A DNA stretch of 64,000 nt. Source: Geothermobacter ehrlichii. Lineage in GTDB: Bacteria > Desulfobacterota > Desulfuromonadia > Desulfuromonadales > Geothermobacteraceae. The position numbers and the translations under genes were made by a program. This document shows positions 46,725 to 49,603 of the stretch, piece after piece; positions within the stretch are counted from its first letter, which is position 1; each line of letters starts with the position of its first letter. The stretch spans positions 1 through 64,000 of the forward strand of contig NZ_VNIB01000013.1 in NCBI RefSeq assembly GCF_008124615.1. Reading direction: 5' to 3'. The notes beneath the pieces are model-generated. The model did no database searches, was not told the origin of the DNA, and saw nothing but the letters and a program-made list of their open reading frames with translations.

Positions 46725-46735
46725 AGTTGAAAAAA

Positions 46736-46798
46736 AAGGCCGACCCGGATATCCTCCGGACCGGCCGTCTTTTCTTTGGTGGAGCTGAGCGGGATCGC
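46736..46798 (-). pseudogene. Remnant of tRNA-Ala 3' end with terminator
   Basis: This stretch is an imperfect direct copy of 46930-46995. It holds AAAAAAGGCCGACCCGG, a matching stem, and GGTGGAGCTGAGCGGGATCG, the complement of the tRNA-Ala 3' end (CCA, acceptor strand, T arm up to CGATCC). After that the similarity to the tRNA stops. It is a truncated tRNA copy about 195 bp away from the intact gene. Confidence 0.7.
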
Positions 46799-46929: not shown

Positions 46930-46968
46930 AAAAAAAGGCCGACCCGGGTTTCTCCGGATCGGCCTTGA
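46930..46968 (-). terminator. Rho-independent terminator after tRNA-Ala
   Basis: On the minus strand AAGGCCGATCCGG-AGAAA-CCCGGGTCGGCCTT forms a GC-rich stem followed by a T-run (complement of AAAAAA at 46930). It lies directly after the tRNA 3' end. A second, similar hairpin is at 46736. Confidence 0.8.
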
Positions 46969-46974
46969 ATTTAT

Positions 46975-47050
46975 TGGTGGAGCTGAGCGGGATCGAACCG
47001 CCGACCTACGCGTTGCGAACGCGTCGCTCTCCCAGCTGAGCTACAGCCCC
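46975..47050 (-). tRNA. tRNA-Ala (anticodon CGC)
   Basis: The minus strand gives a 76-nt tRNA beginning GGGGCTGTAGCTCAGCTGGG and ending with an encoded CCA. The acceptor stem GGGGCTG/CAGCTCC, the D arm, the TTC T-loop (GGTTCGATCC) and an anticodon stem ACGCG/CGCGT with loop TTCGCAA are all visible. The anticodon CGC reads GCG alanine codons. Confidence 0.93.
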
Positions 47051-48573: not shown

Positions 48574-49069
48574 AAAACCGGCGGGACGCGCCCCGCCAGG
48601 CGCCTTACTTTTTCAGCGCAAAAAAGTAAGCAAAAACGCTGGTTTTATAGCAGCCGCAAAGGCCAGTGACTCATTTTACCAAACCGACCGAACTGGTCAG
48701 CCCCTGCTTCGTGGCGACAAAAAATCATCGTTCCCGGGCTCGCTGCGCTCACACGGGCCAGACGGTTCCGAGCGGTGCAGAGCGAACCGTTCTTTCTGGC
48801 AACAACCTTTTCTGTCGAGGCTGCGGCAGTGCAACCTGGCCCAGCGAGCGGCCTGCCGCTCGCTGGGAAAATTTTTCTGTTGGCGCAAAGCATCGTCGTT
48901 CTGGACGGAAACGCAAGGGTTACGTCCCACCGAACTCTCGCGACAGCAATGCCCGCCGCAGGCGAAGCTTTTTCTGCTTACTCTTTGGAGCGCCAAAGAG
49001 TAAGGCGTCGTCCGGGGGGCGCAACCCCGGATTGATGGCTATCGACCAAAGGTCGAAAAAATCAAAAGC
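48574..49069. repeat. 496-bp structured non-coding repeat, unit A
   Basis: The unit opens AAAACCGGCGGGACGCGCC and holds at least three perfect or near-perfect hairpins: 48604-48630 (CTTACTTTTT ... AAAAAGTAAG), 48840-48867 (CCCAGCGAGCGG, loop CCTG, CCGCTCGCTGGG) and 48977-49004 (CTTACTCTTTGG, loop AGCG, CCAAAGAGTAAG). A direct tandem copy follows at 49070. Frames on both strands are conserved only at the nucleotide level; no protein is supported. The 1-kb gap between moaC and radA is filled by units A and B. Confidence 0.85.
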
Positions 49070-49566
49070 AAAACCGGCGGGACGCGCCCCGCCGGGCGCC
49101 TTACTTTTTTCAGCGCGAAAAAAGTAAGCAAAAACGCTTTGTTTTATTGCTGTCGCGGCTGCCTGTGCCTCTTTTCTACCATCCCGACAAACAGACCGAA
49201 AGTTCTTCGTGGCAGCAGAAAAACGTCGTTCCCGGGCTCGCTACGCTCGCACGGGCCAAACGGTTCCGAGCTGCCCCATGTGTACCGCTTGTCCCGCCAA
49301 CAGCCGTTCCCGTCGAGGTTGCGGCAGGTCGACCTGGCCCATCGAGCGGCCTGCCGCTCGTTGGGGAGGCCTTTTCCGCTGGCTCGAAGGGCTGTCGTCC
49401 CAGGTTGATACGACATTCTTACGCCCCACCGAGCCTTCGCGACAGTAATGCCCGCCGCAGGCGCAAGGCCCTTTTCTGCGTCCTCTTTTGGGCCAGCAAA
49501 AGAGGACGGCGCCGTCCGGGGGCGCAACCCCGGATGCACCTCTATCGCCCGAAGATCTAAACATTC
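49070..49566. repeat. 497-bp structured non-coding repeat, unit B
   Basis: The unit starts with the same AAAACCGGCGGGACGCGCC word 496 bp after unit A, and AAAACCGGC recurs at its right border (49567). Hairpins are 49100-49128 (CTTACTTTTTTC, loop AGCGC, GAAAAAAGTAAG) and 49479-49508 (CGTCCTCTTTTG, 6-nt loop, CAAAAGAGGACG). The central GTTCCCGGGCTCGCTACGCT is shared with unit A at the same offset (156 against 158). Mid-unit sequence has drifted, so the duplication is not recent. Confidence 0.85.
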
Positions 49567-49603
49567 AAAACCGGCAGACCACAACCAGCAGCTTTTTCAG
49601 CTC

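Follow-up and report, generated by a model that had tools for sequence, protein, structure and literature searches.

A mosaic repeat with structured, covarying ends between moaC and radA of Geothermobacter ehrlichii suggests an uncharacterised type of repeat that moves and recombines

The DNA analysed here (the window) is a stretch of 64,000 nucleotides from Geothermobacter ehrlichii in which a repeat array separates two minus-strand genes, with the 5′ end of moaC on one side and the 3′ end of radA on the other. The array is internal to its contig and comprises two tandem units, W1 and W2 (Table 1), delimited by the sequence AAAACCGGC, which recurs once more after W2. The first-pass annotation had placed two such units of about 496 bp between these genes, and both the boundaries and the location have been confirmed. 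It had also called the units diverged and closed by 12-bp inverted repeats: they are indeed only ~77% identical, but they really differ in their combinations of discrete block alleles (see below), and three of the end hairpins named B have 12-bp stems, while the left one of W1 has a stem of just 10 bp. Two matches to the CTTACTTT..AAAGTAAG pattern are present in the window, whereas 100 dinucleotide shuffles yield 0.00. The sequence AAAACCGG was seen at the unit junctions while checking for a target-site duplication. Elsewhere in the window, a 66-nt direct repeat (74%) at 46732-46797 and 46930-46995 covers the 3′ end of a tRNA-Ala gene (46975-47050, minus strand), a tRNA 3′-end duplication such as is left by an old integration event.

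Table 1. Features of the moaC–radA array (positions in the window)
Feature	Position	Strand	Basis
Unit 1 (W1), 496 bp, non-coding	48574..49069	+	
Unit 2 (W2), 497 bp, ~77% identical to W1	49070..49566	+	
Start of a further unit after W2, 9 bases (AAAACCGGC)	49567-49575		
End module E, W1 left end	48577..48647	+	profile HMM and covariance model
End module E, W1 right end (inverted)	48959..49033	-	
End module E, W2 left end	49072..49146	+	profile HMM and covariance model
End module E, W2 right end (inverted)	49462..49535	-	profile HMM and covariance model
Hairpin A, W1 left end, GGCGGG-[ACGCGC]-CCCGCC	48580..48597	+	sequence; A-stem covariation in relatives
Predicted pseudoknot 1, W1 left end: loop GCGC 48588-48591 with GCGC 48600-48603	48588..48603	+	X-X′ covariation and fixed columns
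X-X′ pair of W1 pseudoknot 1	C48591-G48600		
Hairpin B, W1 left end, perfect 10-bp stem (12 bp in the W2 counterpart)	48604..48630	+	
Predicted pseudoknot 2, W1 left end: CAGCG 48614-48618 with CGCTG 48637-48641	48614..48641	+	5-base run
CAAAAA spanned by W1 pseudoknot 2	48631-48636		
Central conserved hairpin of W1, CCCAGCGAGCGGC/GCCGCTCGCTGGG, perfect 13-bp stem; V2 before, V3 after	48840..48867	.	
Hairpin B, W1 right end, CTTACTCTTTGG allele, perfect 12-bp stem	48977..49004	-	
Hairpin B, W2 left end, perfect 12-bp stem	49100..49128	+	
Hairpin B, W2 right end, CGTCCTCTTTTG allele, both arms compensated, perfect 12-bp stem	49479..49508	-	

The same repeat is found elsewhere in the G. ehrlichii genome (G000; 33 contigs, 3.24 Mb), which holds about 25 full or partial copies of 74-80% identity. 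They are mostly arranged head-to-tail, with 2-5 units per array and a period of ~500 bp, at about 10 intergenic places on contigs C3, C4, C7, C13, C15, and C17; contigs C7 and C15 terminate within arrays, which makes some of the lengths minimum values. As the first-pass annotation had proposed, no protein frame is conserved. The units are judged non-coding because 181 of the 214 indels that distinguish W1 from other copies have lengths not divisible by 3, every open reading frame of the arrays fails a codon-position filter which the genes next to them pass, and a Pfam search of the units gave no match; a protein-coding repeat is thereby ruled out. Stop codons are depleted over the six frames of W1, W2, and the other units of this genome (0.68 of the shuffled expectation), which yields long spurious open reading frames, but stop-codon avoidance as a general feature was rejected, the ratio being 1.08 in Pelovirga and the G. 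ehrlichii copies being non-independent. No known RNA family was recognised either: the Rfam search that the first-pass annotation had called for came back with no match above the gathering score (best 20.8 bits, E 0.2, against a gathering score of 45).

Each unit carries two copies of an end module, E, facing inward. In order, E consists of hairpin A, a few bases, X′CGC(C), hairpin B, CAAAAA or CAGAAA, and a short stretch. Hairpin A has a GC stem, 6-8 bp long in Desulfuromonadales, and a loop TYGCGX, or more fully (T/A)(C/T)GCGX, while hairpin B is AT-rich, with a stem of 10-14 bp that reads CTTACTTTTT..AAAAAGTAAG or is a compensated variant. Covariation was assessed in sets of 38-61 diverse copies of E, and no permutation attains the observed values. 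The A stems are compensated (GCGGGG/CCCCGC, GGCGGG/CCCGCC, GTCGGG/CCCGAC, GTGGGC/GCCCAC, GTGAGG/CCTCAC, CAGGGG/CCCCTG). X and X′ are Watson–Crick partners (C-G, T-A, or G-C) in 34 of 38 copies, a count that none of 10000 shuffles reaches (15.0 ± 2.8 after shuffling), so that pairing of the A loop with the bases immediately 3′ of A is feasible. For stem B together with the fixed part of pseudoknot 1, 97.8% of cells are paired (42-57% in slid controls); stem B and pseudoknot 1 show 29 double-change cells, against 6.8 shuffled, and a covariation score of 0.186 against 0.055 (0/500), with all slid controls lower. Pseudoknot 2 would join the B loop to the bases after CAAAAA (AAGCTGG/CCAGCTT and GCCA/TGGC are examples, CAGCG/CGCTG being that of the window), and in 61 diverse ends the mean perfect run is 4.21, against 2.87 ± 0.10 with partners permuted (0/2000). 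These shuffles ignore relatedness, which makes the z-scores optimistic, yet the changes recur in distant phyla. Judged by its covarying loop-to-downstream pairings, E would thus contain two predicted pseudoknots.

The compensatory-change test that the first-pass annotation had proposed therefore bears out its view that selection acts on structure: stems covary, arms are compensated, and the two loop-to-downstream pairings covary as well. Its suggestion of a structured RNA fares less well. According to this explanation, E would be a double-pseudoknotted RNA motif, transcribed from the arrays and regulating neighbouring genes or acting in trans. The covariation and the H-type pseudoknot geometry with an A-rich linker are what such a motif would display, and short RNAs have been suggested to arise from intergenic multicopy sequences in this clade (PMC2700814). 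However, E lies in both directions in every unit, the interiors are mosaic, and Rfam offers no counterpart. Wobble pairs also speak against RNA, amounting to less than 1% of stem cells and favoured on neither strand: among 1962 stem cells there are 7 G.T wobbles and 12 A.C mismatches, and at the X-X′ position TG is found 15 times and CA 14 times. RNA selected on one strand normally favours G.U. Since G.T is no commoner than A.C, folding at the DNA level is the likelier substrate, and the loop-to-downstream pairing needs both partners single-stranded. The data thus favour, though not decisively, E folding as single-stranded DNA rather than as RNA, and we regard the RNA explanation as unlikely.

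The interiors of the units are mosaics shuffled from interchangeable blocks. In an alignment of 21 units, conservation peaks at the ends and in three inner blocks and is lowest in between, E being the best conserved portion of the unit. Each variable block exists as 7-10 discrete alleles, with 92-96% identity within an allele and 55-68% between alleles. Allele linkage is strong between the two halves of a block (mutual information, p<0.0005) but almost absent between blocks on either side of a conserved hairpin (p 0.01-0.9), and four-gamete violations are found between blocks. The right-end hairpin has two alleles with compensation on both arms; in the chimeric units C15a2 and C15b3 its arms are mismatched, which would be expected if recombination took no account of structure.

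Units have also been gained and lost, as follows from the presence or absence of elements and from differences in unit number between the sister species G003 and G004. G004 has one element (G004:C2, ~45.3 kb) that is missing in G003, and two further loci differ by about one unit. At the radA–moaC locus, both genomes have a related element next to a second, ~140-bp repeat; in G004 that E is missing because the ~125 bp between two CCGGCGGG repeats are absent, and in G001 and G002 no E is found at this locus. When G003 is compared with G004, the junctions are not clean and no unambiguous empty site with a target duplication is found, and some differences of this type look like recombination or deletion between direct repeats. 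The ~140-bp repeat of G003 and G004 is itself dispersed, has inverted ends (GGCGGCCGATA...GATGCAAGGCG), and often directly adjoins E elements and the ends of interspecies unit differences; its ends were not found paired in the G. ehrlichii window. Another palindromic repeat (GTAGAGACGTGCCGTCGGCACGTCTC...) occupies the moaC–radA intergenic region of G002, and the site seems to be prone to repeats.

Such observations also suit a substrate for recombination or site-specific exchange, in which a recombinase would recognise E or the inner hairpins, in a dRS3/NIME- or attC-like manner, and the arrays would reshuffle their neighbours, for example sugar-nucleotide genes. Linkage breaks at the conserved hairpins, units come and go, and several arrays are placed between genes of this kind. 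In G. ehrlichii, sugar-nucleotide genes (a fcl-like epimerase, manC, gmd, an epimerase, and a galE-like gene) alternate with the arrays on C7 and C15, and in G004 one array was found, by reading, between epimerase and UDP-sugar dehydrogenase genes; with ten arrays, this association is suggestive only. In Neisseria, too, repeat arrays adjoin surface genes (PMC3898611). On the other hand, the arrays are few, no recombinase was identified, the dRS3 motif is absent, and ordinary homologous recombination accounts for the mosaic, so that a dedicated substrate of this kind appears improbable.

Copies are by no means absent from other genomes. When the search of Desulfuromonadales suggested by the first-pass annotation was performed with BLAST, 30 of 39 relatives matched, and beyond G. 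ehrlichii only the ~65-bp unit ends do so. For five genomes of the order, the full covariance model gives counts of 19-85 E modules each, and the units of Pelovirga likewise form tandem arrays. The highest number belongs to G034 (85 modules in 3.1 Mb), many of whose contigs end inside them; in the 20 loci read there, E is nearly identical and the interiors are just 75-88% identical, which suggests that E has recently spread or been strongly homogenised. In G. ehrlichii, the copies are old and diverged, and therefore movement there may have ceased. Among the sampled genomes of the phylum outside the order, no E was detected at E<=1e-4 with strict filters. An exact GCGCCTTACTTTTT..AAAAAGTAAGCAAAAA scan of one genome per species nevertheless gave 68 stretches, in Desulfuromonadales, Pseudomonas, Stutzerimonas, Rhodocyclales, and a Pasteurellaceae, as well as in Oscillospiraceae, other Clostridia, Alistipes, Amoebophilus (Bacteroidota being among the phyla), and others. 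Loops and flanks of these stretches are species-specific, and there are frequently several copies per genome. The list consists of exact matches in draft genomes, and single matches in Patescibacteria and Latescibacterota MAGs, possibly contamination, are not relied on. A looser hairpin pattern occurs 1-15 times in each of ten of the genomes with such stretches (0 in the backwards control). Inverted, inward-facing E...E pairs, 298-676 bp apart, were recognised in many scanned genomes across phyla with a profile built mainly from left ends, plus the ends of G. ehrlichii; the partner ends in Malonomonas, Stutzerimonas, Oscillospiraceae, and Azonexus were outside its training set. The part common to other phyla is chiefly hairpin B with its flanks.

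The conservation of the B arms and of CAAAAA across phyla, along with the intergenic placement, could mean that E is a site for a conserved host protein that binds DNA or cruciforms (in a nucleoid, gyrase, or terminator role) and that recombination has spread this site passively. Such a site could also explain the patchiness of E across phyla, which counts against a mobile element. However, the same patchiness sits poorly with a conserved host function (absent from the sampled genomes of the phylum outside the order and from some close relatives, it occurs in 9 of 59 Pseudomonadaceae), and loop-to-downstream complementarity is superfluous for duplex binding; we consider this explanation very unlikely. 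Scarcely credible is the idea of neutral junk in which template-switch (quasi-palindrome) repair preserves perfect hairpins: the stems are perfect without wobble and are mismatched where mosaic breakpoints hit them (C15a2, C15b3), but the 4-7 bp pseudoknot pairings covary and the B sequence itself is kept across phyla.

A gene that could mobilise the repeat was sought in several ways. The G. ehrlichii genome has 7 Y1_Tnp matches; E was found within ~1.5 kb of a Y1_Tnp at none of 33 loci (eight genomes, 96 kb), with the positive controls recovered, and so the earlier claim that no transposase accompanies the array holds within the range tested. Over 58 genomes, Y1 and hairpin counts are uncorrelated (rho 0.13, p 0.31), and three genomes with the hairpin have no Y1 at all; a RAYT/TIRYT link was rejected on both grounds. 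Plasmid and phage records gave 0 matches, as did IMG/VR with the exact pattern, and a phage or plasmid origin was likewise discarded. Among the loci read (the 20 loci of G034 included), which are a part of each genome, there is neither an autonomous copy of greater length in which E modules enclose a gene nor a parent IS sharing E ends.

Among known systems, the repeat resembles NIMEs in its mosaic arrays and REPINs in its inverted structured ends, and it fails the defining tests of both. NIMEs (Neisserial intergenic mosaic elements, composed of RS blocks and dRS3) also form intergenic arrays of variable blocks between short conserved inverted repeats, as is found here, and their blocks are thought to recombine and often lie near surface genes (PMC3898611). 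However, the dRS3 repeat ATTCCC(N8)GGGAAT is absent from the window at <=1 mismatch, and the present repeat has ~500-bp units, defined ends E, a cross-phylum hairpin core, and pseudoknot pairings. With REPINs/BIMEs and RAYT-mobilised REPs, it shares two inverted hairpin modules around a variable core, a dispersed intergenic distribution, and, likely, recognition as single-stranded DNA; in contrast to them, its units of 0.3-0.7 kb exceed typical REPINs, and no RAYT is flanked by E. Alignments inspected by eye reveal no unpaired GTAG tag at the hairpin feet, which read ..ACCGG and CGCC-CTTAC..GTAAG-CAAAA, and a CGTC/GTCG string near the right ends varies with pseudoknot 1 and is no constant tag. 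Nor was any GTTRRRY, one half of the RYYYAAC/GTTRRRY core of integron attC sites, noticed where units adjoin. Di Nocera et al. 2013 (PMC3733652) describe TIRtrons/TIRYTs, repeat families with inverted, sometimes double-palindromic ends that accompany Y1 transposases; none of the 33 loci has a Y1 gene between E ends, yet TIRtron ends may match those of the present repeat. Like MITEs, the repeat has terminal inverted repeats without coding capacity and is dispersed, and one MITE, Chunjie, has been reported from a related host, Geobacter uraniireducens (PMC10969869); however, MITE ends usually match a parent IS and are accompanied by target duplications, neither of which was found here, Chunjie being compared by description only. 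Intergenic multicopy sequences, some with inverted-repeat ends, have been catalogued in G. metallireducens and P. carbinolicus (PMC2700814, PMC3543383), and they probably include relatives of this repeat; the passages found on them in the main text mention no E, mosaicism, or pseudoknots. A literature text search for the hairpin sequence returned no relevant paper, and no report was found in which the ends have covarying pseudoknots or in which a hairpin core is common to Desulfuromonadales, Pseudomonadaceae, Rhodocyclales, Firmicutes, and Bacteroidota.

Of the possibilities named by the first-pass annotation, "non-autonomous mobile element or recombination substrate" agrees best with the data: copies are dispersed, ends are inverted, interiors are mosaic, and units are gained and lost. 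We give somewhat better than even chances to a non-autonomous, REPIN/NIME-like interspersed mosaic element with ends structured as single-stranded DNA, mobilised in trans and reshuffled by recombination. For its mobilising step, we infer that E would be exposed as folded single-stranded DNA at replication or repair, and that an enzyme supplied in trans would read the folded E and copy or move the unit; by analogy one may guess at a nuclease of the HUH/Y1 type. Head-to-tail arrays could then result from unequal crossing-over and from units inserting into or next to an end already present, while RecA-type recombination or gene conversion between conserved hairpin blocks would swap the variable blocks among arrays. 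A bolder proposal, which we hold to be conceivable but rather doubtful, is that E serves for recognition at the ends of a mobile repeat of an undescribed class, structured as single-stranded DNA, with two adjacent pseudoknotted hairpins and a range of several phyla, and moved by an enzyme so far connected with no repeat.

Many bacteria have dispersed hairpin repeats, and the mobiliser is known for few of these. The present family suggests an uncharacterised type of repeat that moves and recombines, in which the covarying pairings of E define exact, testable mutants and the mosaic arrays are a natural record of recombination. If the arrays do prefer sugar-nucleotide genes, surface-polysaccharide variation may be shaped by them too.
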